Shown: positions 39 through 31,840, counted from the stretch's first letter. The stretch is DNA of 64,000 bases from Desulfuromonadaceae bacterium (GCA_028688955.1 JAQTXD010000008.1:1-64000); one strand, 5' to 3'. The notes: generated from the sequence alone by a model not told the origin. Made by a program: numbers and translations.

Positions 39-893
39 ATGAGCTGGTTTACCAAAGAAAGACCCGGAATTGAAAGATCTGGTGGTAACAAAGTCACGTT
101 TCCCGATGGCATGTGGGTTAAATGCCCTGGCTGTTCCGAAACTCTTTTAAGCAAGGATATAGAAGCTAATCTGCAGGTGTGCCCAAAGTGCGGCCACCAC
201 TATCGTATCAGCGCACGAAAGCGCCTTGAAGCTCTCCTTGATGGAGCGGTATGGCAGGAATTTGATGCCAACATTACTTCCACAGACTTTCTTGAATTCA
301 AAGACGCAAAAAGCTATCAGGACCGCATCGATGCCGCCCTGGCAAAGGGTGGTTCAAAAGATGCCGTCATCTGCGTTGAAGGTACCATTGAAGGTCTGTC
401 GGTACAGGTGTCCTGTTTTGACTTTTCCTTCATGGGGGGCAGTATGGGGAGCGTCGTGGGAGAAAAAATTACCCGTTCCATCGAACGCGGGCTGGAGAAG
501 CATCAGCCGGTGATTATCATCTCCGCATCCGGCGGGGCTCGCATGCAGGAAAGCATTCTCTCTCTGATGCAGATGGCAAAAACGTCTGCTGCGTTGGCTA
601 AACTCAAACGGGCGGGTATCCCGTTTGTGTCTCTGTTAACCGATCCTACCACCGGCGGAGTAACCGCAAGTTTTGCCATGCTGGGAGACATCAACATAGC
701 CGAACCAAAAGCGCTGATCGGTTTTGCCGGTCCTCGTGTTATCGAGCAGACAATTCGCCAGAAACTTCCTGAAGGTTTTCAGAGGGCAGAATATCTTCTC
801 GACCACGGGATGGTTGATGTCATCATTCCCCGAACAGAAATGCGTACAAAACTTGCCTCAATTCTAAAAATGCTGCATCGGACAAACGCCTGA
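39..893 (+). CDS. accD: Acetyl-CoA carboxylase carboxyltransferase subunit beta
   Basis: Protein has the N-terminal zinc-finger CPGCSETLLSKDIEANLQVCPKCGHHYRIS and the carboxyltransferase core SASGGARMQESILSLMQMAKTSAAL...PTTGGVTASFAMLGD. Confidence 0.97.
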   Translation: MSWFTKERPGIERSGGNKVTFPDGMWVKCPGCSETLLSKDIEANLQVCPKCGHHYRISARKRLEALLDGAVWQEFDANITSTDFLEFKDAKSYQDRIDAALAKGGSKDAVICVEGTIEGLSVQVSCFDFSFMGGSMGSVVGEKITRSIERGLEKHQPVIIISASGGARMQESILSLMQMAKTSAALAKLKRAGIPFVSLLTDPTTGGVTASFAMLGDINIAEPKALIGFAGPRVIEQTIRQKLPEGFQRAEYLLDHGMVDVIIPRTEMRTKLASILKMLHRTNA

Positions 894-894
894 C

Positions 895-2172
895 ATGTCC
901 CTGGCAGATGTGTTGGACAAGCTTTACGCCCGTCGGCGCTTTGGTATACGGCCAGGCGTCGACAGGGTCGGAAAGCTGCTGGAACGTCTGGGAAATCCTG
1001 AAAAACAGTTTCGCACGATTCATGTTGTCGGTACAAATGGCAAAGGTTCAACCTCAGCCTTTCTCTCCTCAATTCTTCTGCATGCAGGGCACTCGGTTGC
1101 CCAGTTCAGCTCTCCTCACCTGATACGCTTCTCAGAACGATTTCGGATACACGGCGTCGAATATCCGGCTGAAAAGTTGTCAGTCAAACTGGAAACTGTG
1201 CTGGAGGCCGCTCCCGAAGAAGCTACTTTTTTTGAGATTACCACCGCGCTGGCGGCTTACATCTTCCGAGATGAGGGCGTCGCTCTGGCTGTCATGGAAG
1301 CAGGAATGGGCGGCTGTTCCGATGCAACTGCCTCGCTCAATGGCGAGATGTCCATTCTTACTCCGATAGCCCTTGACCACACTGAGTATCTTGGTGCGGG
1401 CCTTCAAGAGATTGCCCGGGAGAAAGCCGGAATCATCAGACCGGGAACGAGGGTAATCAGCGCCTGCCAGCCGGAAACTGTACATGAAGAGATTGAGAAG
1501 CGGTGCATAGCCGGGAAGTGTGATTTAAAAACGCTTGGTACTGACTTTACGGTTAATCGGAACGATGATGGCACTATCAGCTACCGGGGACTGAATAAAG
1601 AGCTGGAATATATTGCCCCGGGAATAGCCGGAAGATATCAGGCGATCAACGCAGCGGTTGCACTTGCTGCCGCTGAAACACTGGAAATGAACGGGATCGA
1701 CATTGCAACAGCTTCATATTCAGAAGGCATCTCTGCAGCACGCTGGCCGGGACGAATGGAATTAATCGCCGGTACACCACGGCTGCTGCTGGACGGAGCG
1801 CATAATCCTGCCGGTGCAGGCGCTCTTGCTGATGCGTTGCAGGATTATTCCTATTCACGACTGCTGCTTGTGACCGGTGTCTGCGACGACAAGGATATCG
1901 AGCGTATTTTCGCACCACTTATACCTCTGGCAGATTCCGTCTACACGGTCACTCCCGCAGTTGACCGGGCCTTAAAAGATGAGGAACTCGCAAGTTTTTT
2001 TCTCTCAAGGGGGATAGTCGCCCAACCGTGCGGTTCAGTTGTATCAGGAGTCAACAGAGCAATCCAGCAGGCCGCTGAAGATGATCTTGTGGTTGTATGC
2101 GGTTCACTGTTTGTTGTGGGTGAAATCAAAGCGTGGCTTGAACAGACGGAATTCAGCGGGATCAGAGGTTGA
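895..2172 (+). CDS. folC: Bifunctional folylpolyglutamate synthase/dihydrofolate synthase
   Basis: VVGTNGKGSTSAFLSSIL P-loop, FSSPHLIRFSERFRI and LLLDGAHNPAGAGAL motifs; directly follows accD. Confidence 0.96.
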   Translation: MSLADVLDKLYARRRFGIRPGVDRVGKLLERLGNPEKQFRTIHVVGTNGKGSTSAFLSSILLHAGHSVAQFSSPHLIRFSERFRIHGVEYPAEKLSVKLETVLEAAPEEATFFEITTALAAYIFRDEGVALAVMEAGMGGCSDATASLNGEMSILTPIALDHTEYLGAGLQEIAREKAGIIRPGTRVISACQPETVHEEIEKRCIAGKCDLKTLGTDFTVNRNDDGTISYRGLNKELEYIAPGIAGRYQAINAAVALAAAETLEMNGIDIATASYSEGISAARWPGRMELIAGTPRLLLDGAHNPAGAGALADALQDYSYSRLLLVTGVCDDKDIERIFAPLIPLADSVYTVTPAVDRALKDEELASFFLSRGIVAQPCGSVVSGVNRAIQQAAEDDLVVVCGSLFVVGEIKAWLEQTEFSGIRG

Positions 2173-2180
2173 TTGTTTCA

Positions 2181-4229
2181 ATGATACGATTGTGCTATCT
2201 CGTTTTGTGTATTGTATGCAGTTGCTGGGGGTCACCCGCCGTAGCTGCGCAGCCGCCAGACCCTGATGAAAATATGCATATCAATGCTGACCACATGAGT
2301 CAAAATTCGGCAGAGCAGGTATACACGGCAGATGGCAATGTAGTTGTCCTCTGGCAGGGACTTCGCCTCACCGCAGACCACGTCCGCTTTAGTGCAGAAA
2401 CTCATCTGCTGCAAGCAGATGGCTCGGTTGTTATGAAAAAGGATCAATCGGTTCTGAAAGGCGAAACACTGGTTTTGAATATGGATACCGGACGGGCAGA
2501 AATGGATTCTACTCTGCTTACCCTTCCTGAAACAAATACGACCGTTACCTCAAAAAAACTCATTCGTATAAATGAGACCGAATTCAGTGGAACGGCAACA
2601 AACCTGACAACGTGCGACCTCCCTGATCCAAGCTGGAATTTTACTTCTGACAGCCTCAAGGTCAATCTGCTTGGCTATGCAACCGGGCGTAACGTTATAT
2701 TTTATGTAAAGAACATTCCGGTACTATATATTCCCTGGATAGCCTTCCCCGTCGTGCTGGAGAAACGATCCGGCCTTCTCTTCCCGCACTTTGGCTACTC
2801 AAAGAAACGCGGTGCGCAGCTTGATATTCCCCTCTACTGGGTCATTTCACCCAGCCAGGACCTTCAGTTCGATCTTGATATAATGACCGATCGTGGTGTA
2901 GGGACCGGAGCTGACTATCGCTACATTCGCACTCGCGGCAGCGAAGGGCATATCAACGCGTATTCAATCTACGATCAGCAGGAGAGCCGGTGGCGTTGGC
3001 AACTGGCTCAGGAGCACAAAGAGATTTTTTCCCGCGATGCCAATATCCGCACGATGGTCAACGCCACAAGTGACCGGACTTTTTTGAAGGATTTTGGCGA
3101 CAAAAATGGTGACTACAACAGACAATCGAGCGATACGACCGTAAATGTACTGAAAATGTGGCAGAACTACGCTGCAACATCATATCTGCACTACAGCGAA
3201 GACCTCTATGCCGCCAATAACCGGTCTACTCTTCAGACACTCCCCTCACTTGGCATAGCTGCGGTCCGACAGACTGTTTTTTCACTGCCGGTTTTTTTCG
3301 ATCTCGACGGATCTGCAGAAAATCTGTATCGAGATACCGCGCCACGCGGCCAACGCCTGCACATCTTTCCGCGATTCACTCTGCTGCCATTCCAGAACAG
3401 CGCCGTTCAAACATCACTGTTTGCAGGAGCGCATATACGTGGCTACGCCACCGACAGAAGAGATATCAACGGTGGCGTTCATACAAGCGATGGAGATCTG
3501 GTACCTGAGGCAGGTGTACGCATGTCAACATCCCTGACCCGCATCTACGATACCAATGCATCTACACTGAAAAAGGTTCGGCATGAGCTGATTCCCGAGG
3601 TCAGGTACTCCCTCGTACCGGAACAGGAGCAACAACGACTTCCTCTGTATGACTACACGGATCGCTTGATCCACCGGAACATGATTTCACTGTCAGTGAC
3701 CAGTCTGGTCAATGGTAAATTTACCGGTAATGGTACGACTGAATATCGCGACATTTCACGTATCAAACTGAGTGCCGACTATAAAATTTCAGGAGAGCGA
3801 CAGGACCTTTTAACACTGGTTGAGAGCCAACGGGCATGGAGTGATCTGATGCTGGAGTCGGAGACACGCCTGTCAAAGTTACTAACAGTAACCTTTGATA
3901 CACGCTACAACCTGTATGAACATTTCCTGTCGACCGCCGTAGCCGGAATTGATGTTGATGATCGACAGGGAAACATCATTGGTGCGGGGTACCAGATGGC
4001 CCGCCACGAAGTCGAGTACTTTGAGGGGCGGCTCTCTACCAGGCTGATCAAACCTCTGCACCTTTCATATACCGCCCGTTACTCATTTGAACGAAACGAT
4101 TTCCTCGAATCCGTGTATGCAGCCGAATACCGACATAAATGCTGGAGCGTGAACGTTGCGGTTCACCAACGCCCCGGTAACAATTCATATACATTCAATT
4201 TCAATCTTGCGGGACTCACCGGTAAATAA
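2181..4229 (+). CDS. lptD: LPS-assembly protein LptD (OstA/Imp family)
   Basis: N-terminal OstA-like region (INADHMSQNSAEQVYTADGNVVVLWQGLRLTADHVRF) and C-terminal LptD beta-barrel (VKNIPVLYIPWIAFPV..RSGLLFPHFGYS). ORF track starts at TTG 2169; ATG at 2181 is likely. Confidence 0.93.
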   Translation: MIRLCYLVLCIVCSCWGSPAVAAQPPDPDENMHINADHMSQNSAEQVYTADGNVVVLWQGLRLTADHVRFSAETHLLQADGSVVMKKDQSVLKGETLVLNMDTGRAEMDSTLLTLPETNTTVTSKKLIRINETEFSGTATNLTTCDLPDPSWNFTSDSLKVNLLGYATGRNVIFYVKNIPVLYIPWIAFPVVLEKRSGLLFPHFGYSKKRGAQLDIPLYWVISPSQDLQFDLDIMTDRGVGTGADYRYIRTRGSEGHINAYSIYDQQESRWRWQLAQEHKEIFSRDANIRTMVNATSDRTFLKDFGDKNGDYNRQSSDTTVNVLKMWQNYAATSYLHYSEDLYAANNRSTLQTLPSLGIAAVRQTVFSLPVFFDLDGSAENLYRDTAPRGQRLHIFPRFTLLPFQNSAVQTSLFAGAHIRGYATDRRDINGGVHTSDGDLVPEAGVRMSTSLTRIYDTNASTLKKVRHELIPEVRYSLVPEQEQQRLPLYDYTDRLIHRNMISLSVTSLVNGKFTGNGTTEYRDISRIKLSADYKISGERQDLLTLVESQRAWSDLMLESETRLSKLLTVTFDTRYNLYEHFLSTAVAGIDVDDRQGNIIGAGYQMARHEVEYFEGRLSTRLIKPLHLSYTARYSFERNDFLESVYAAEYRHKCWSVNVAVHQRPGNNSYTFNFNLAGLTGK

Positions 4230-4231
4230 AA

Positions 4232-4258
4232 ACGGGGCACCCGTCAAAAGCGCCCCGT
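4232..4258. terminator. Hairpin ACGGGGC...GCCCCGT between convergent lptD and pentapeptide gene
   Basis: Inverted repeat seen directly between convergent ORFs. Confidence 0.55.
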
Positions 4259-4288
4259 CCATGTCAAACCGTACAATTTCCTGCCAGC

Positions 4289-4711
4289 TTACTTGCAAAC
4301 TCCGATTGATCCTTTTTTGCACACCCTGTTATCAAACCAGGTGACATCCTCCAGATTTGCCCCACTGAAATCTGCCCTGTCAACCGACGCATTATCAAGC
4401 GATGCCCCGGTAAGCGTGGCCTTTTTCAGGTTGGCTTTTTCCAGACTGGCATCATCAAGAACGGCATCCCTGAGATCGCACTCTTCCAGATTTGCCTCCA
4501 TCAGGTTAGCACCCTCAAGCGCCGCCTGACTCAACTGAGCACCTTTCAGGTTTGCTCCCCTCAGGTCACACCCTGGACAGTTTTTTGATGCTTTCAGGCG
4601 TTCAAGATCCTCCGGCACAAAAGCAAACGCGCGGTTTGTTATGAGTATAAGCAATAGTGCCGCCGCCCCTGCAAATAGTGGTAACCTGATACGCACTAAT
4701 AATTTCAGCAT
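4289..4711 (-). CDS. Pentapeptide repeat protein with N-terminal signal/anchor
   Basis: Tandem A(N/D)LxxA repeats (LRGANLKGAQLSQAALEGANLMEANLEECDLRDAVL...). Confidence 0.9.
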   Translation of the reverse strand: MLKLLVRIRLPLFAGAAALLLILITNRAFAFVPEDLERLKASKNCPGCDLRGANLKGAQLSQAALEGANLMEANLEECDLRDAVLDDASLEKANLKKATLTGASLDNASVDRADFSGANLEDVTWFDNRVCKKGSIGVCK

Positions 4712-4749
4712 CTACGACTCCTTTTGATTCAGATCAGATTCGGATAAAA

Positions 4750-5832
4750 TCATGAGTACCCTACCAGAAAAAGGAGCCGTTTGTATATAGCAACCCGCTT
4801 TACGTCGCTCACAGACAGATCGCCGGCAGATACCGGAGTAGCAAACTGACGCAGAAACCGCTTGTCACTCAGGGTCAGTTTCGGATTATCGATGCCTATC
4901 CGTGAGAGTACGTGCAGTGATCGGAGCGAGAAACATCCCACAGAGGACGCAAGGCATGGATTGAGCAGAATCTTTTTTTCATCAAGGTTATGGGAATCGC
5001 CGCTGTCGCGTTTTTTCAGATAGAGGACAAAGTTATCCGGCGACGAACGTTCATTTTCAAGCATCTTCAGTCGGCCAATTTCCTCCGCCGGATTTTCCCT
5101 TGCGTTCCGATGGGCAAACAGCTGTATCTCAAGACCGGTTTGGGCAATCATTTCAAGCACTCCGTCAATGCGATAGGTATGGACCCGAGGATGGAGGAGA
5201 GCATCAGCAAGCCCGGAGACAGTCGCAGCCTCATCAGAATTAGCGAGATAATTTGCCAGACGTGACCCGGTAGGCGCCTTTTTAAGGATACGGCGTGCGT
5301 CAGCGGGAGAATCAATTCCAAGGAGACGGAATGCGCGGCGAATAGACTCTTCCTGCCGGCGGGCATAGCGACTGTAGAGCATTATCCGCATAATGCCGCC
5401 GGGCACGAGACGACGTTCCAGGTCTATCAGACCCGCCACGGGGTCGTCCAGATGATGGAGCACGCCAAAAGAATCAATCAGCCCAAACTCTTCATGAACA
5501 ACGGCAGGATCCGACAGATTTCCACAGCGGTACTCGACATTCATCAGTCCGTGCAGCAAGCAGTGCAGACGCGCCCGGCGGAGACTCTGTGCAGACAGGT
5601 CAAGAGCTGTAATAGCGACATCCGGATTAGCAACGGCATAGGGGTAGGGAGAGAACGTCCCGCACCCGGCAATCAGAATTTTTCTTGCTTCCAACGGAGG
5701 TAGCGATCGGTTAAAGCGCGCCCAGAGCGCGTCAAGATTGAGGGCGTAGGTATCGCACCGACGAACCGAGGCAAGCAGCGGGTAGATGGGATAGGGATGC
5801 TTTTGGTAATGTGTTTGTACCGGATTTGACAT
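4750..5832 (-). CDS. Class I SAM-dependent methyltransferase
   Basis: ILIAGCGTFSPYPYA glycine-rich motif I, DLSAQSLRRAR and FGVLHHLDDP motifs. Confidence 0.88.
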   Translation of the reverse strand: MSNPVQTHYQKHPYPIYPLLASVRRCDTYALNLDALWARFNRSLPPLEARKILIAGCGTFSPYPYAVANPDVAITALDLSAQSLRRARLHCLLHGLMNVEYRCGNLSDPAVVHEEFGLIDSFGVLHHLDDPVAGLIDLERRLVPGGIMRIMLYSRYARRQEESIRRAFRLLGIDSPADARRILKKAPTGSRLANYLANSDEAATVSGLADALLHPRVHTYRIDGVLEMIAQTGLEIQLFAHRNARENPAEEIGRLKMLENERSSPDNFVLYLKKRDSGDSHNLDEKKILLNPCLASSVGCFSLRSLHVLSRIGIDNPKLTLSDKRFLRQFATPVSAGDLSVSDVKRVAIYKRLLFLVGYS

Positions 5833-23659: not shown

Positions 23660-25870
23660 ATGACCATGCTCCACACCTTACTGCCCCTCGCAGTCATAGT
23701 CGCTCTGCTGGCACCAACTGCACGCGCCGAGAATGTTCAGGAGTTGCCGGAAATCGTTATCTCCGGGACACAGGAAGAGTCCTCAAACTCATCTCTCGGT
23801 GCAGCCAGACTTAATGACGCAGTCCTGGCACCACAGCGAACGGCAACCAGTGACAGTGCGCACCTTTTGCAAGACATCCCCGGCGTAAGTCTCAATGGTG
23901 CCGGTGGTATATCGAGCCTTCCTGCAATCCACGGCCTGGCAGATGACCGGATACGCATTCAGGTTGATGGTATGGATTTGATGTCTGCATGTCCCAATCA
24001 CATGAATTCGGCCCTTTCCTATATCGACCCGACGAAGGTCGCGGTTGTCACCGTGTTTGCCGGCATCACTCCGGTCAGCGTTGGCGGTGACAGTGTTGGC
24101 GGTTCAATTCAGGTAAAGTCCGCTCCGCCCGAATTTGCTCCCACCGGCGAGAATGTCACCATCAAGGGGCAGGCGGGTACATTTTTTCGCAGCAACGGTA
24201 ATGCCTTTGGCTACAATTTTGGCGCCACGCTTATGGGACGAAACGCCAACGTGTCCTACAGCGAATCCCATACCCAATCAGACAATTACAAAGCCGGAAG
24301 AGCATTTAAGCCTGTCTCCCAGGGGCACGAAGGCGGCCCCTTGATTCCCGGCAATGTAGTCGGGTCATCCGCTTATGACGGGGCAATAAACAGGTCAATT
24401 GGCCTGGCACTGCGACATGAGAACCATTTGCTCCAACTTGACGCAAGCATGCAGGAGGTAGGTTTTGAAGGGTTTCCCAACCAGCGCATGGACATGACTA
24501 ACAACAGAAACACACTCTTCAACCTTCACTACACCGGTCAGTTTGGATGGGGTGACCTTGAAGCACGAGCCTTCCACCAAGACACCCGGCACAAAATGGA
24601 TATGGGAACGGATCGTTTTTTCTACGGCACCGGTATGCCCATGGAATCCAAGGCCAAAACCAACGGGATGTTACTCTCGGGAAACATTGTACTTACTGAG
24701 CAGGATACTCTGCGGGTTGGATCAGAATATCAAAATTACACCCTCTACGACTGGTGGCCTCCGGTTGGCGGTTCAATGGGGCCAAATGCATTTTGGAATG
24801 TTGACTACGGCCAGCGGGATAAAATCGATTTTTTTGGCGAATTGGAAACACAATGGAATCCCCAATGGCTCAGCCAGGTGGGTGTTCGCAGCGATATTGT
24901 CCTAACCAATGCAGCACCCGTGCAGGGTTACGACAACGGCCTCGCCGGAATTTGGGGCAACGACGCGGCAGCCTTCAATGCACAGAACCGCAAACACACC
25001 GACTTCAATTGGGATGTGACCGCTCTCGCACGCTATACGCCGACCACGACACAGACGTATGAAGCCGGATACGCACGCAAATCCCGCTCACCGAATCTCT
25101 ACCAGCGCTACCCCTGGGCAACAAATGCAATGGCAGCATTGATGAACAACATTGCCGGTGATGGCAACGGCTACATCGGCAATAATGACCTGAAATCTGA
25201 AGTAGCCAACACCGTAAGCGTGACCGGCGATTGGCATGATACTGAAAAGAAAAAATGGGGACTGAAGGGGACAGGGTACTACACCTACGTTCAGGATTAT
25301 ATGGATGCACAACGCTGCGACTCTGGACAGTGCAGCGCTGCCAATGGGTCTGTCAGTTCCGGCTTTGTGCTGCTCCAATATGTGAATCAAACAGCTCAAC
25401 TCTATGGATTCGACCTGTCTGGCAACCTCCTTCTTTCTGAATCCGACGACTACGGGAGTTTCACCGGTACCGGCCTGCTCAATTATGTCCGGGGTGAAAA
25501 CCGGACGACAGGCGACAATCTCTACAATGTTATGCCGCTCAACGTGAAGCTCGCGGTAGTGCATCGCCGGGGAGGCTGGTCCACAACTGCCGAATTCCAG
25601 GCGGTAGATGATAAGCGGCACGTGTCACAGGTACGAAACGAGATGCAGACCGGTGGCTACAGCCTGTTTAATCTGCGCAGCAGCTACGAGTGGAAATACG
25701 CCCGCCTTGATGTCGGTATCGAGAATATCTTTAACCGTTTCTACTCAATGCCATTGGGTGGAGCGTACGTCGGCCAGGGAGCTTCAATGACAACCAACGG
25801 TATACCGTGGGGTGTTCCCGTTCCGGGCATGGGTCGCTCGTTCAACGCATCTCTGAACGCACACTTTTGA
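23660..25870 (+). CDS. TonB-dependent receptor, OprC/NosA-like (putative copper receptor)
   Basis: Plug IHGLADDRIRIQVDGMDLMSACPNHMNSALSYIDPTKVAVVTVFAGITPVSVGGDSVGGSI with C111xxxM115; H311xM313 in RHKMDMGTDRF. Both motifs read from the translation. Confidence 0.9.
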   Translation: MTMLHTLLPLAVIVALLAPTARAENVQELPEIVISGTQEESSNSSLGAARLNDAVLAPQRTATSDSAHLLQDIPGVSLNGAGGISSLPAIHGLADDRIRIQVDGMDLMSACPNHMNSALSYIDPTKVAVVTVFAGITPVSVGGDSVGGSIQVKSAPPEFAPTGENVTIKGQAGTFFRSNGNAFGYNFGATLMGRNANVSYSESHTQSDNYKAGRAFKPVSQGHEGGPLIPGNVVGSSAYDGAINRSIGLALRHENHLLQLDASMQEVGFEGFPNQRMDMTNNRNTLFNLHYTGQFGWGDLEARAFHQDTRHKMDMGTDRFFYGTGMPMESKAKTNGMLLSGNIVLTEQDTLRVGSEYQNYTLYDWWPPVGGSMGPNAFWNVDYGQRDKIDFFGELETQWNPQWLSQVGVRSDIVLTNAAPVQGYDNGLAGIWGNDAAAFNAQNRKHTDFNWDVTALARYTPTTTQTYEAGYARKSRSPNLYQRYPWATNAMAALMNNIAGDGNGYIGNNDLKSEVANTVSVTGDWHDTEKKKWGLKGTGYYTYVQDYMDAQRCDSGQCSAANGSVSSGFVLLQYVNQTAQLYGFDLSGNLLLSESDDYGSFTGTGLLNYVRGENRTTGDNLYNVMPLNVKLAVVHRRGGWSTTAEFQAVDDKRHVSQVRNEMQTGGYSLFNLRSSYEWKYARLDVGIENIFNRFYSMPLGGAYVGQGASMTTNGIPWGVPVPGMGRSFNASLNAHF

Positions 25871-25896: not shown

Positions 25897-27354
25897 ATGA
25901 ATATCAACCATAGCTTCCTCAATAAACACGGATTCATCATAATTATAACAGCCGTGGTCGCGCTATCATCGGGGGGATGCAGTAACGACGGCCCGGCAAT
26001 TGAGGCACATCCGCAGGTGATCACCTTCGCAGCTCCTCCTGTGCCAAACAGTGGAGACCATACCGCGACCGTAGTGGCAACAGCCAGCTCCAACCTGGCA
26101 GTCATCTACGGCAGTAGTACCCCGGCAATTTGTTCCGTTGACAGCAGGACAGGTGTTGTAACCGGCACAATGTCAGGCACCTGCACGGTCACCGCAAATC
26201 AGTCAGGAAACACGCACTACGCCCCGGCAGCGCAAGCAACTCAGGACATCACCTTCAACTTGAGTCAAGCCATTACCTTTGCTGAACCACCAACTCTGAG
26301 CCAGTTTGATACGGCAACTGTTTCAGCTACGACAACCTCCGCCCTTCCGGTAAGTTACAGCAGCACAACTCCATCTGTCTGCTCGGTGAATAGCGGTAGT
26401 GGCCTTGTGACCGCTCTTTTGACCGGTGATTGCATTATTGTCGCAGATGCAGGTTCGCTCCATGCGACACAGACCATCCCGGTTGCTGCACCAACAGGGA
26501 TAACCCTACCCGGTATCCCGGCACAGGTCACAGCAACTGCAGGCACAGCAACAAACACTGTCGAGGTACGTATTGGTGCGACATCAAGCGGCGGCAGTCC
26601 GATCACCGGCTATAGCGTGACCTCCAGTCCGAGCGGAGTTACCGCATCCGGGACGGGATCATCGATAATCGTTTCCTGTCCGACAACGTGTGCAGGCTAC
26701 TCCTTTTCCGTGGCAGCAACCAATACCGCTGGTACTGGTCCGGCATCCGCGCCAGTTGAGGTAATTACGGCCTATAATGTCATCGAGACCTTTTATGAGC
26801 CTGACACCCAGCCCAATAATTCATTGTTTATCGGATCATTCACATTAAATTCCACAACCGGCACGGTAACGGGACTTCATGGCATCTTGAGTGAATCTAT
26901 GACGGGCAGCTCAGCTGTTTATCCGAATGACACCATGACCTGGCTATCGCTCAACAATCAGCTGTCAACAGCACCGGTGACGCTGGGTGGGGTGAGTGGC
27001 CTGCTGGTAACCACGTTCCTGTTGCCGACAACAAATACATTTACAACAGCATATGGTGGCGATGGGTGGGCTCCGGGGACGGGGTATGCGATGTACTACG
27101 GTTTCCCAACAGCCCTCAACCCCAAGGCAGGTGGAGTAGGCAACGCCTATGCCATGATTTTTGTTAACACGGCGAATCCGACGGCTGCGTTGACGCAAGC
27201 ACAAATCGACAAACTCGCCTATGCAGACTGCGCCGCTGGGGGCATGATGAGTTCCGTGTGTATGACCGGAACAACGGTCGCGGGATATGGAACCATCGGT
27301 TCTATGAGTGGACACCCAGTATCTCAGACCATAACAAAAGGAATAACACCATAA
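25897..27354 (+). CDS. Putative lipoprotein with repeated Ig/Fn3-like domains and a Met/Cys-containing C-terminus
   Basis: Lipobox-like VALSSGGC; repeated ITFAxPP...CSVxSxxGxVT modules; Fn3-like ITGYSVTSSPSGVTA; C-terminal DCAAGGMMSSVCMTG. Confidence 0.75.
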   Translation: MNINHSFLNKHGFIIIITAVVALSSGGCSNDGPAIEAHPQVITFAAPPVPNSGDHTATVVATASSNLAVIYGSSTPAICSVDSRTGVVTGTMSGTCTVTANQSGNTHYAPAAQATQDITFNLSQAITFAEPPTLSQFDTATVSATTTSALPVSYSSTTPSVCSVNSGSGLVTALLTGDCIIVADAGSLHATQTIPVAAPTGITLPGIPAQVTATAGTATNTVEVRIGATSSGGSPITGYSVTSSPSGVTASGTGSSIIVSCPTTCAGYSFSVAATNTAGTGPASAPVEVITAYNVIETFYEPDTQPNNSLFIGSFTLNSTTGTVTGLHGILSESMTGSSAVYPNDTMTWLSLNNQLSTAPVTLGGVSGLLVTTFLLPTTNTFTTAYGGDGWAPGTGYAMYYGFPTALNPKAGGVGNAYAMIFVNTANPTAALTQAQIDKLAYADCAAGGMMSSVCMTGTTVAGYGTIGSMSGHPVSQTITKGITP

Positions 27355-27359
27355 ATTTC

Positions 27360-27845
27360 ATGCGTAGACCACCCCGCTGCATACCGGCTCTTGTGCTTGT
27401 CATACTCTACGTGATGATGGTCATAAGTCCGTTTGCACCGATTGCTCTGCAATCAGCTGTCATTGCTCACGCTCTCACAGGGGAATGTGCCAGCGATTGC
27501 TCTATCTGCGGCTGTTCGACCGAGCGTAGTGCCAATCACACCTGCTGTTGCTGGCAGAAAAAAATTCAGGCGGCTCATGCAGAAGAACAGGAGCAACCAG
27601 AATGCTGCAAGAAAAGCCAAACTGGGCAAAAACGTATAAAAGCCATAATCAGCTCCCGTCCCTGCGGTAGCGGTAAAACTGCTGCATTGGTAGGAGTGGG
27701 GCATGGAGATGTTTTCCCGTATTTCTTCAACGCAGATAGCCCTGTCGTGCTGGAGTCACCATTGATTACCAGAAACCCAACTCGCCAGATAGATTGGCTT
27801 GGAGAGCCTCCGGACCAACCACCAAAAATCTCTTGCCGTACCTGA
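27360..27845 (+). CDS. Cys-rich membrane-anchored protein, paralogue 3 (GECASDCSICGCSTERSANHTCCCWQKKI)
   Basis: Same architecture as ORFs at 16921 and 20882; C-terminal SSRPCGSGKTAAL...LGEPPDQPPK. Confidence 0.8.
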   Translation: MRRPPRCIPALVLVILYVMMVISPFAPIALQSAVIAHALTGECASDCSICGCSTERSANHTCCCWQKKIQAAHAEEQEQPECCKKSQTGQKRIKAIISSRPCGSGKTAALVGVGHGDVFPYFFNADSPVVLESPLITRNPTRQIDWLGEPPDQPPKISCRT

Positions 27846-27887: not shown

Positions 27888-30710
27888 ATGAACATACAAT
27901 CACTTGTATCAGTACTTGCTTTATTCATGTTTATAATTGGATCCGTGGGGCAGGCAACTACCGCAATGGCTTACTCTACACCGCCAAGCTGGATGCCGAT
28001 GACCATGTTGGACATCAGTTTCAATGCCGGCACGAACAAACTGGCTATAGCACCTACAACGTTTGCTGCACCCTTATCAACCAACACGAATATGATGGGA
28101 GCGCCCGCAGCAGGGGTTGCCAGTTTCGACCCATCCACGCCGTATGCTGTTCTCAATGGCACCGCCTTCAGCCGACGTTTCGGCTGGAACGACGCCAACG
28201 AGATGACGTCTTCAGCCATTTTACCAGCCGTCCAGGCTTTTTATGGCCAAGGAGCCAATATCTGGATCCAGAGTCTGTCACAGTCGCCAGGCTTCAGCAC
28301 ATATCAGGCGATAGGTGCTAATGGGCTCGACATGGGAAACACCTATCCCGGCATTTTCGGCACCGCCGGCAGTTCCACCAAGTGGAAGTGGGACGGCATG
28401 ATGGACCATAATACCAACGCCGTACCATTCAGCTTTCTGACAAAACCAAACCAGTTCTTTTCAGCCTACTACAAGATTTATGTGGGTGATGCTGTCGGCA
28501 ACGAGCTACTGGTCGACAAAAATGGCATCAAGGTTGCCTCGGCAGCCACGGACACTACCTGGGGTTGGCAGGGGCCTCCGTTTGTCTTTACCAGCCAAAC
28601 CGGCGTGGCAGTTAGTACATTACTCGAGTCCGATGTGTATACCCATACCGATGATGCCTCCCCCATCACCGTAACCGGCGGTGAATACGCCATATCCACC
28701 GATGGGGGTTCTAGCTGGGCCGACTGGACAAGTGCTGCCGGTACAATCAACAAAAATGATAAAGTCAAAGTACGCCAGACATCATCTGCAATTGCCGGAA
28801 CCACAACGACCGCTACTCTGGCTATCCCGACGGCAAACGGATCAGGACAGTTCCGTGTCACCACCGCCGGCACAAACCCATCCGATACCGTCCCGAATAC
28901 ATTCACTTTTACCAGCCTGACCATCGCTCCTGCCAATACGGTCACCGAGTCTTCCGTAGTGACTATTTCCGGCATCAACGCTCCGTCAGCGATCTCTGTC
29001 AGTGGCGGTGGCCAATACGCCATTTCAACCGATAATGGTCTCTCCTGGGGTGCCTGGACCTCCATTGCCGGAACAGTTGAAAACAGCAACCAGGTAAAGG
29101 TGCATCTGACCTCTTCGGCCACTCCGGGTGCTTCGGCATCGACAATCCTGACCATTGGTGGAGTTACAGCAACATTTTCTGTAACCACCGGCAGCCCAGT
29201 CCCGCCATCAACAACTTTCACAAGCGTGTCAAACGCTCCGGCCAACACCTCCGTTTCCGGCATGCCGTTTTATGTCATGTCCAACCCTATTGCCGCCACC
29301 GCAGACTCGTCTATAAGTGTAGCGGGAGGCATAACCCCACAATACTCAGTTTCCACCGACGGTGGATATAACTGGAGCGTATGGTCTTCCACAACTCCAG
29401 CCACTGTTGTTGCCGGTACCCATGTAAAGGTCCGTGTGGTCCCAGCCACGACACCATTCACAACCTCAACAACCAACTTGAATCTCGGCAGCACCATCAT
29501 CGGCTTTAGCGTTACCACCGGCTATGTCAACCCACCTTCCTGGATGCCTATGGCCATGTTGAATGTGACATTCAATTCCAGCACAAACACATTATCGGTT
29601 CAGGATGAAAGTACCCACCCTTCCTTCTCCAGTGGAGCTTTGCCAGCCCTTACCTACGTCCCGGCAGGCTCATATGACCCGAGCAAACCTTGGAGCGTAT
29701 TAAACGGGGGAGTGGCTATCAGCCGTCAACTCGGTTGGGACGACAGTTCTGCACTGCACGGAAGCGGCATCACCATACCCGGCAGCATCCTCTATCAGAT
29801 CCAGGCCGCATTTCCAGGGGCAAGTATCTGGATAGAACGCCTGTCCCAGTCTCCTGGGCTTGAAACATACTATGCTGACGGTATGTTCGGCGTCGGCGGC
29901 ACAAGCAGTGGTGCATTAACCGGTTCTCCACAGCCCTATTCAAACATGATGACGGGATTCGCTAATATTTATGAAAACAACTATTACGGAATATTCGGCA
30001 CAGCTGGAAGTTCCACCAAGTGGAAATGGGATGGCACCATGATTCACAATGTATATGCAGTTCCAGCTGCATACATCACCCAACCAAACCAGCTTTTTAC
30101 CGCAACCTACAAAGTATATGTCGGAGATAGCGCAGGGAATGAAGTAGCTGGATCAACAAGCACAACTGAAACGTGGACGTGGAAGGGGCCGGCATCGGCT
30201 TTCATATTTGGCTTTGCCAGCCAAACTGATGCAGCGACAAGTACATCAGTAGAATCAAACACCATAACCGTTGCCAACATCACCACCCCAGCTGCGATTT
30301 CCATATCCGGTGGCGCATTTGCTGTTTCCACTGATAGCGGTGCCACCTGGAGTGCATATTCGGCAAGTCCGGCAACCGTTAGCGCCGGTGATCAGGTCAA
30401 AGTGCGACAGACAACCTCGGCAATGCCCGGAGCCACGTCAAATGCAACATTAACCATCGGAACAATTCCGGGTGCTTTCAGCGTCACCACCGTGAAACGG
30501 AATGGCAGTACCGGTGTCAAGCCAACTGTCAGCGACGCCCTCAAAGCGCTTCAGTTGTACTCGGGAGCAATTCCCCTGACCCCGGTCGATCAAATCCGTT
30601 ACGATGTCGCTCCGCTTGCAGCTAACGGCATCCCTCAGGGAAATGGTGCTGTTGATGTGGCCGACGTCATCATGCTTCTGCGGAGAAGTATCGACATCGG
30701 TACCTGGTGA
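27888..30710 (+). CDS. Large secreted modular protein: duplicated PPSWMPM-type domain, four Ig-like repeats, C-terminal dockerin-like module
   Basis: Signal peptide; two copies of PPSWMPM(T/A)ML...GIFGTAGSSTKWKWDG...YK(I/V)YVGD(A/S)(V/A)GNE; repeated ISVSGGxYAISTDxGxSWxxWTS...; C-terminal VSDALKALQL...YDVAPL...GNGAVDVADVIMLLRRSI. Confidence 0.85.
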   Translation: MNIQSLVSVLALFMFIIGSVGQATTAMAYSTPPSWMPMTMLDISFNAGTNKLAIAPTTFAAPLSTNTNMMGAPAAGVASFDPSTPYAVLNGTAFSRRFGWNDANEMTSSAILPAVQAFYGQGANIWIQSLSQSPGFSTYQAIGANGLDMGNTYPGIFGTAGSSTKWKWDGMMDHNTNAVPFSFLTKPNQFFSAYYKIYVGDAVGNELLVDKNGIKVASAATDTTWGWQGPPFVFTSQTGVAVSTLLESDVYTHTDDASPITVTGGEYAISTDGGSSWADWTSAAGTINKNDKVKVRQTSSAIAGTTTTATLAIPTANGSGQFRVTTAGTNPSDTVPNTFTFTSLTIAPANTVTESSVVTISGINAPSAISVSGGGQYAISTDNGLSWGAWTSIAGTVENSNQVKVHLTSSATPGASASTILTIGGVTATFSVTTGSPVPPSTTFTSVSNAPANTSVSGMPFYVMSNPIAATADSSISVAGGITPQYSVSTDGGYNWSVWSSTTPATVVAGTHVKVRVVPATTPFTTSTTNLNLGSTIIGFSVTTGYVNPPSWMPMAMLNVTFNSSTNTLSVQDESTHPSFSSGALPALTYVPAGSYDPSKPWSVLNGGVAISRQLGWDDSSALHGSGITIPGSILYQIQAAFPGASIWIERLSQSPGLETYYADGMFGVGGTSSGALTGSPQPYSNMMTGFANIYENNYYGIFGTAGSSTKWKWDGTMIHNVYAVPAAYITQPNQLFTATYKVYVGDSAGNEVAGSTSTTETWTWKGPASAFIFGFASQTDAATSTSVESNTITVANITTPAAISISGGAFAVSTDSGATWSAYSASPATVSAGDQVKVRQTTSAMPGATSNATLTIGTIPGAFSVTTVKRNGSTGVKPTVSDALKALQLYSGAIPLTPVDQIRYDVAPLAANGIPQGNGAVDVADVIMLLRRSIDIGTW
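27969..28497 (+). repeat. Intragenic domain repeat copy 1 (PPSWMPMTML...YKIYVGDAVGN)
   Basis: Aligned by eye to copy 2 at about 29529-30139. Confidence 0.7.
29529..30139 (+). repeat. Intragenic domain repeat copy 2 (PPSWMPMAML...YKVYVGDSAGN)
   Basis: Aligned by eye to copy 1. Confidence 0.7.
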
Positions 30711-30759
30711 CGAACAGCATCAACTGTTTGTGCGTAATTTTACAACAAGGAGATTTATT

Positions 30760-31248
30760 ATGATGAAGCAGATTTTTTTCGCTCTTTTATGTTCATTTTC
30801 ATTTTTGACGCTTGCCGCGTGTGGAAGCGGCAGCTCACACACAAACACAAGCGCCACGCTCAAGGTGAGCCTCAGTGGTGTTCTCGCTCCTGACAAAGCA
30901 ATTGCCGGAGCGAGTTTCACGGTAGCACTCCCGGCCAATGTGACACCTGCTATGGCTGGAAGTGCAATTGCGACCTCTGTTGTTACTCCATCGGGTACAT
31001 TTGCAGGAGGTACCCAAACACCACCTGAGTACAATGCATTGACAAACACCATTCAAATAGCGCTCGCAAACAACGTAGTAAACGGCGTAACTACGGTTGG
31101 GGAAATTGCGACCATCACGTTGCAACTGGCTAATAATGCAGGACCTTCTGCAAATAACTTTCCATTAACCGATATAAGCGTTATTGATACATCGGGAAAC
31201 CCTGTCACAGGAGTTACTGCAATTGTCTCTAACTTGACCTTGCAGTAA
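30760..31248 (+). CDS. Small lipoprotein with cohesin-like domain
   Basis: Lipobox LTLAACGSG; beta-rich ATLKVSLSGVLAPDKAIAGASFTVALP...GEIATITLQLANNAGPSANNFPLTDISVIDTSGNPVTGVTAIVSNLTLQ resembles cohesin-family strand order. Confidence 0.6.
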   Translation: MMKQIFFALLCSFSFLTLAACGSGSSHTNTSATLKVSLSGVLAPDKAIAGASFTVALPANVTPAMAGSAIATSVVTPSGTFAGGTQTPPEYNALTNTIQIALANNVVNGVTTVGEIATITLQLANNAGPSANNFPLTDISVIDTSGNPVTGVTAIVSNLTLQ

Positions 31249-31354: not shown

Positions 31355-31840
31355 ATGAAAAAGTTGTGGTTTGCCCTGATGCTCGTTTTAGCCCTTGGAA
31401 CCGTCTGCCTGGCCGCTGAGAAAATTGAGGCACCTGATGCCTGTAAACACTGCGGTATGAATCGTACAAAATTTGCTCATAGCCGTATGATTGCTACTTA
31501 CACCGATGGCAGTAAATCCGGTACGTGCAGTATTAACTGTATTGCGACAGATTTGAAGGAAACCAAAAAAGAGGTTAAATCACTCCAGGTTGGTGATTTC
31601 AACTCAAAGAAGCTGATTGATGCCAAGACTGCAACATGGGTAATTGGTGGCAGCAAAAGGGGTGTCATGACTCCGGTTGCAAAATGGGCTTTTGCTGACA
31701 AGAAAGATGCAGAGGCATTTGTACTGAAAAACGGCGGTAAGTTGGCAACCTTTGACGATGCTCTGAAAGCGACAGAAAAAGAGCAGGCTGATCGGGAAAA
31801 ACCAATGGACCACAAAGGACACGGCGACCACAAGATGTAA
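31355..31840 (+). CDS. NosL-like copper-chaperone-family protein
   Basis: Signal peptide; CKHCGMNRTKFAHSRMIATYTDGSKSGTCSINCI, WVIGGSKRGVMTPVAKWAFADKKDAEAFVLKNGGKLATFDDAL; His-rich C-terminus DHKGHGDHKM. Confidence 0.82.
   Translation: MKKLWFALMLVLALGTVCLAAEKIEAPDACKHCGMNRTKFAHSRMIATYTDGSKSGTCSINCIATDLKETKKEVKSLQVGDFNSKKLIDAKTATWVIGGSKRGVMTPVAKWAFADKKDAEAFVLKNGGKLATFDDALKATEKEQADREKPMDHKGHGDHKM

Follow-up and report, generated by a model that had tools for sequence, protein, structure and literature searches.

Known cohesin-dockerin systems

In the cellulosomal type I cohesin-dockerin pairs of Clostridium and others (PF00963/PF00404), a tag of 60-70 aa with two EF-hand-like repeats, usually placed at the C-terminus, is matched by a beta-sandwich cohesin partner. 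Non-cellulosomal cohesins and dockerins are also known and were reviewed by Peer et al. (2009, FEMS Microbiol Lett 291:1-16), as represented in PMC9012536 and PMC5244752. For methanotrophic archaea and sulfate-reducing partners, proteins bearing these modules were tied to functions at the cell surface, and adjacent cohesin and dockerin genes were reported in one sulfate-reducing partner (PMC9012536, PMC10553843). Cohesin-dockerin pairs have also been engineered for surface display, holding protein complexes (for example PMC9705933), and a soil study read the dockerins in Geobacter-type transcripts as cellulose degradation (PMC6199725).

The window analysed here, a stretch of 64,000 nucleotides from a Desulfuromonadaceae bacterium, carries on its plus strand the gene of a large exported protein (27888-30710) directly followed by that of a small lipoprotein (30760-31248). 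This pair resembles the cellulosomal type I pairs in the length, the two repeats and the usually C-terminal position of the tag, and in a cohesin partner that is here recognised by remote homology. Unlike those pairs, it has a single cohesin per lipoprotein with no multi-cohesin scaffold, and the partner is encoded next door. In addition, those tagged proteins that were scanned are surface proteins of adhesin-like type rather than glycoside hydrolases, about 8-9 residues are inserted in loop 2, degenerate versions of loop 1 are frequent, and Pfam does not recognise the cohesin-like domain. As in the non-cellulosomal cases, both modules occur in organisms without a cellulosome; in contrast to them, the modules occur here as a standard pair of genes in which the lipoprotein is adjacent and co-diverges, and this pair recurs both inside single genomes and across the genomes of one order. 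The systems of methanotrophic archaea and sulfate reducers share with this one the setting of non-cellulolytic anaerobes and a probable surface or adhesion role, but their proteins are recognised by standard domain annotation, whereas the lipoprotein domain described here escapes Pfam and belongs to a Gram-negative, lipoprotein-based arrangement. Relative to the artificial display systems, the window pair is apparently a natural equivalent. The pairing of a lipoprotein with a dockerin had no earlier description in the literature searched, to which subscription papers mostly did not belong.

The tagged protein and its dockerin-like domain

The ORF at 27888-30710 translates into a 940-aa protein composed of a signal peptide, a duplicated domain, CHB_HEX_C/BNR-like repeats and a C-terminal dockerin-like domain, and its C-terminal end reads ...PTVSDALKALQLYSGAIPLTPVDQIRYDVAPLAANGIPQGNGAVDVADVIMLLRRSIDIGTW. 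Pfam recognised CHB_HEX_C over the cut-off (E 9.7e-9) and BNR below it (E 2.9e-5). The duplicated domain consists of two copies of approximately 210-250 aa without family assignment, each starting with PPSWMPM.

The dockerin-like domain covers 67 aa (30507-30707, plus strand) and is supported by paralogues, relatives, Dockerin_1 matches, PDB profile matches and alignments. Both reading frames are present, and so are the peptides quoted by the initial annotation, which had seen a dockerin-style end in this protein and a cohesin-like domain in the next. As single sequences, the window proteins gave no match to Pfam Dockerin_1 (PF00404) even at E 10 in the Pfam and NCBIfam searches. At the family level the dockerin reading is backed, since among 44 relatives of the domain, 16 matched Dockerin_1 with E values of 1 or lower (best 7.8e-7), and several paired loci, e.g. 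G004:C107, G038:C20 and G041:C1, exceeded the Pfam cut-off. When the family profile was compared with the PDB, solved dockerins were found weakly among the best matches (5m2o_B, E 0.0017; weaker, 2ccl_B, 2y3n_B and 1ohz_B), the top match being an unrelated designed repeat protein (E 0.001). A plasmid search with the domain returned no match.

Two EF-hand-like repeats can be followed along the 67-aa module by their D..L/I..L helix motifs, which are in register with relatives of full pattern. The claim of two such segments stands as far as the module is concerned and had to be amended in its details for the window copy, which has lost loop 1 and expanded loop 2. Loop 1 is degenerate (NGSTGVKPTVSD), keeping only the Asp of position 12, and loop 2 reads D-VAPLAANGIPQG-NGAVDVAD, with 9 inserted residues separating NG from the invariant Asp of YDVAPL, so that canonical 12-residue Ca2+ loops (DxNxDGxxxxxD) in both repeats are not found in the window dockerin. 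A textbook loop 1, for example DINGDGKVDISD, exists in many partners and was kept in the relatives L140, L157 and L190; it is absent from the window subfamily and was lost in many relatives. Across the family, the second repeat follows the pattern D-V-A-P-L-x-N-G-x-P-x-P-D-G-x-I-D-x-x-D, which can be interpreted as a loop 2 with an insertion of 8-9 residues after the first ligand. This interpretation would explain the near-invariant Asp of DVAP. These assignments rely on an alignment read by eye, as automatic classification misplaces the anchor in G038:C20, G048:C11, L145 and others. As the window copy has lost the acidic ligands of its first loop, we infer that its Ca2+ dependence is reduced or altered.

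The lipoprotein and its cohesin-like domain

The next gene is indeed that of a lipoprotein, as initially annotated, and only its start required correction, from 30604 to 30760. The former was merely the start of the longest ORF, while the ATG at 30760 is credible by virtue of the ribosome-binding site AAGGAG (30747-30752, plus strand), read from the sequence 7 nt upstream, and of a lipoprotein signal peptide. From this ATG the gene encodes 162 aa on the plus strand (stop at 31246-31248). The product opens with MMKQIFFALLCSFSFLTLAACGSGSS..., and its signal peptide with the lipid-acceptor cysteine (30760-30822, plus strand) contains a hydrophobic stretch and ends in the lipobox LAAC, the Cys codon occupying 30820-30822. 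The lipobox cysteine that characterizes bacterial lipoproteins is thereby present, and the lipobox is conserved in the family. The residue following the lipidated cysteine is used to predict membrane sorting, the established +2 rule. In the window lipoprotein this residue is Gly, as it is in 27/28 and 45/58 family members with a recognised lipobox, and outer-membrane sorting is predicted on this basis. The two genes lie on the same strand, with 49 bp between the upstream stop and the ATG, and the sole terminator-like stem in this space has 3 G-C pairs; such sites occur at chance rate in the region.

Behind the signal peptide lies a single beta domain (30853-31245, plus strand), for which cohesin likeness had been proposed. 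Neither Pfam nor NCBIfam scans yielded a match of the window lipoprotein to Cohesin (PF00963) even at E 10, and 39 lipoprotein relatives gave none in Pfam at E 1. The relationship emerged from profile-profile alignment by hhalign, in which a profile of 127 non-redundant lipoprotein domains was compared with one of 32 cohesins, made from proteins of the same order recognised by Pfam. The alignment reached E 3.7e-5 and a score of 32.2 over 108 columns, with a probability of 71%, i.e. not above 95%, and ran end to end (columns 12-138 of 144 against 7-117 of 123). It exceeded every control: 200 column-permuted cohesin profiles gave a maximum of 15.6, the reversed profile 14.4, fn3 and Big_2 about 12, and 69 profiles of other proteins from the same loci a maximum of 18.5. 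The result was unchanged when cohesins originating from lipoprotein loci were left out. A first, shallow comparison (39 versus 16 sequences) had been weak (E 0.014) and limited to the C-terminal half; the 16-sequence cohesin profile itself retrieves solved cohesins at E 1.9e-14. Against the PDB, the lipoprotein profile matched nothing but antibody chains, with E values of 0.45 or higher. AlphaFold on single sequences returned a beta-rich model of pLDDT 42 with no PDB match for the lipoprotein domain, and a second such model had a pLDDT of 59, again with no fold match in Foldseek. Taken at the level of profiles, these results are good evidence that the lipoprotein domain is remotely homologous to cohesins, and the likeness to cohesin and dockerin profiles on which the initial proposal depended was thus found for both partners as families.

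A larger class of lipoproteins, of about 380-580 aa (L053, L034, L038, L020 and L028), carries the cohesin-like domain at the C-terminus, behind an N-terminal region, and is likewise encoded directly downstream of dockerin genes.

Pairing in the source genome and in relatives

Two queries, the 71-aa C-terminus and the lipoprotein, were run separately against the source genome. All four of its dockerin-like genes adjoin a lipoprotein of the same family, three of them besides that of the window: L002/L008 (contig 16), L003 (contig 94) and L005 (contig 82). At L005 the lipoprotein comes first, and the dockerin is N-terminal with the canonical loop DGDVDGDNRVTGID. Two further matches of the dockerin search were discarded as chance, L006 lying in a phage-type baseplate-like reading frame and L004 being antisense to the gene itself. 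The lipoproteins L008, at the end of contig 16, and L226, at the end of contig 63, are nearly the same in sequence; probably the assembly stops there within a repeat, or the pair is duplicated, and no gene is truly broken.

Profiles built from the four pairs were used to search 58 genomes of the same order, and dockerin-like domains were found in 49 of them (up to 13 matches per genome) and the lipoprotein in 44. Among the dockerin matches listed, one lay 30-300 bp upstream on the same strand for 67 of the 140 lipoprotein matches and within 2 kb for a further 16, and none was found on the opposite strand within 5 kb of any of the 140. Moreover, 80 loci were picked by their lipoprotein match alone, disregarding neighbours, mostly from genomes of other genera. 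A same-strand adjacent dockerin was present in 61 of them, in the upstream gene in 57 and in the downstream gene in 4; in 3 loci the dockerin shared the strand but fell outside the adjacency cut-off, and in none of the 80 was it on the opposite strand. By our own estimate, about 10 dockerins among about 4500 genes would provide well under one such neighbour in 80 by chance. The recurrence of the pairing in the source genome, in relatives and in loci chosen blind to their neighbours therefore excludes a chance origin of the arrangement.

No dockerin was found within about 3.5 kb of the lipoprotein in the 16 remaining loci. Lipoproteins without a recognisable dockerin in that range include L128, L150, L159, L166, L171, L174, L178 and L186, as well as L188, L192, L193, L194, L198, L202 and L204, and these may be orphans, may serve distant dockerins or may be paired with a degenerate tag.

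The lipoprotein family occurs almost exclusively in a single bacterial order, probably a Geobacter-like one, whose genomes often hold several copies. In a sample of the class, 85 of 244 genomes matched it, just five of the 85 being outside the order, and in a phylum-wide sample of 297 genomes there was one match outside the order, in a 606-aa protein. This exported protein (L227:2201-4018, minus strand) bears the cohesin-like domain at its N-terminus, and no dockerin was seen within the 7.5 kb read around it.

Co-divergence of the two domains was assessed on 79 non-redundant adjacent pairs, whose distance matrices correlated with a Mantel r of 0.456. Free permutation of the pairs gave a maximum of 0.136 in 2000 trials, and shuffling of partners within genomes, which keeps the species history, gave a mean of 0.302 and a maximum of 0.428 in 5000 trials, none of which reached the observed value. 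Since the signal goes beyond within-genome reshuffling, matched partners evolve together; the same signal could come from joint duplication or joint travel of the two genes without contact.

Tagged partners and scaffold-like loci

In ten full partners from other loci, Pfam identified Ig-like domains (Big, MBG, TIG, Glucodextran_B), NHL propellers, an RCC1 propeller and Lcl_C, one of the ten having no Pfam domain. No carbohydrate-degrading catalytic domain was detected by Pfam in the 11 tagged proteins scanned, i.e. these ten and that of the window, in agreement with the non-cellulolytic setting initially proposed, as neither cellulases nor hydrolase catalytic domains appeared in this set. The partners scanned here are not plant-fibre enzymes, which argues against the reading of such dockerins as cellulose degradation (PMC6199725). 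The marks of a cellulosome, namely dockerins on carbohydrate-active enzymes and a multi-cohesin scaffoldin, were not found for the pair, whose lipoprotein has one cohesin-like domain.

At L070, a 1243-aa protein (622-4350, plus strand) combines a canonical C-terminal dockerin with two cohesins that Pfam recognises, and the next gene encodes a 482-aa lipoprotein with the cohesin-like domain (4369-5814, plus strand). This layout is scaffoldin-like in a non-cellulolytic setting and makes chains of attachment possible, because two cohesins and a dockerin in one protein precede a lipoprotein of the family. A second dockerin type, with DxNxDxxVSISEVQxAINxFLG occurring twice, was observed C-terminally after a cohesin at L072:397-2280 and L073:3-1004 (both plus strand), and one EF-hand of this type lies within the same 340-aa protein as a cohesin-like domain at L181:2949-3968 (plus strand).

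Gene neighbourhood of the window pair

Downstream of the window pair, a NosL-like gene (31355-31840, plus strand; Pfam NosL, E 1.2e-15) is a conserved neighbour, and the same gene order was found at L044/L081 and L046/L088. This gene is outside the general two-gene module and is tied to the particular pair of the window. At these loci the duplicated-domain protein was also kept together with the pair and NosL, and at L044/L081 so was M23. The joint conservation of these genes suggests that the window locus may be a metal-related surface system. A TonB-dependent receptor of the window (23660-25870) has haem and copper receptors as its nearest models, far below their cut-offs. The metal-receptor neighbourhood noted initially is specific to the window locus and does not generally accompany such pairs. 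In addition, a Cys-rich frame at 27258-27845, overlapping the end of an fn3 gene, possibly encodes a small exported protein (MRRPPRCIPALVLVILYVM...), for which Pfam gave no family match.

Functional interpretation

The dockerin relationship, the remote cohesin homology, the conserved adjacency and the co-divergence constitute the computed support for an interacting pair, and the dockerin/cohesin reading of the initial annotation is borne out by family-level profiles, order-wide pairing and co-divergence. Judging from sequence comparisons, the window pair is probably one instance of a two-gene attachment module specific to this lineage, in which dedicated cohesin-lipoprotein/dockerin pairs keep large exported proteins attached to the outer membrane. 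The large multi-domain surface protein encoded by the first gene would cross the inner membrane via its Sec signal, and the lipoprotein of the adjacent downstream gene, itself anchored in the outer membrane by the lipidated cysteine, would bind the C-terminal dockerin-like domain of that protein through its single cohesin-like domain. Several such pairs are present per genome, and the co-divergence of matched partners suggests that each lipoprotein probably captures its own neighbour. From these observations we infer physical binding, one-to-one specificity and a surface (outer-leaflet) orientation. A broader proposal, in which the pairs form an order-wide library of orthogonal private anchors built on a cohesin branch unknown to Pfam, with a loop-1-less window subfamily that may bind independently of Ca2+, is put forward tentatively and with somewhat less than even chances.

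The lipoprotein could instead act as a chaperone or sorting receptor in the periplasm or at the outer membrane, recognising the dockerin-like tag transiently during secretion and anchoring nothing. Such a role would suit the C-terminal position of the tag in nearly all members and the provision of each exported protein with its own lipoprotein, as is the case with dedicated secretion partners; it is nevertheless unlikely, considering that the homology is to cohesins, modules of stable complexes, and that the N-terminal dockerins at L005 and L016 suit binding better than a C-terminal export signal. It is also conceivable, with a rather low probability, that the tags bind other cohesins of the same genome, such as the two of L070, and that the lipoprotein, merely co-transcribed, has a separate role. 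Pfam cohesins were present in 19 of the 20 relatives searched, and L070 unites two cohesins with a dockerin in a single protein, but the lipoprotein domain is itself cohesin-related, dockerin adjacency and co-divergence belong to the lipoprotein, and the PF00963 matches of the source genome are three separate proteins encoded elsewhere.

A purely superficial resemblance, in which the C-terminal domain is peculiar to the lineage, the beta-rich lipoprotein is unrelated, and both were co-inherited as an operon with no interaction, appears scarcely credible. The empty single-sequence scans of both window proteins and the loss of Ca2+ loop 1 in the window copy and many relatives would fit it, and against it stand the dockerin matches at family level, a cohesin profile match far above both the permuted (200, maximum 15.6) and the natural (69, maximum 18.5) controls, and co-divergence in excess of within-genome reshuffling.

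If retention by dedicated lipoproteins is correct, the non-cellulosomal dockerins of this order would acquire a concrete function, the attachment of surface proteins through a dedicated lipoprotein. The co-diverging pairs would then supply orthogonal binding modules already matched by nature, and with the copies that lack a canonical Ca2+ loop one could test directly whether dockerin binding requires calcium.
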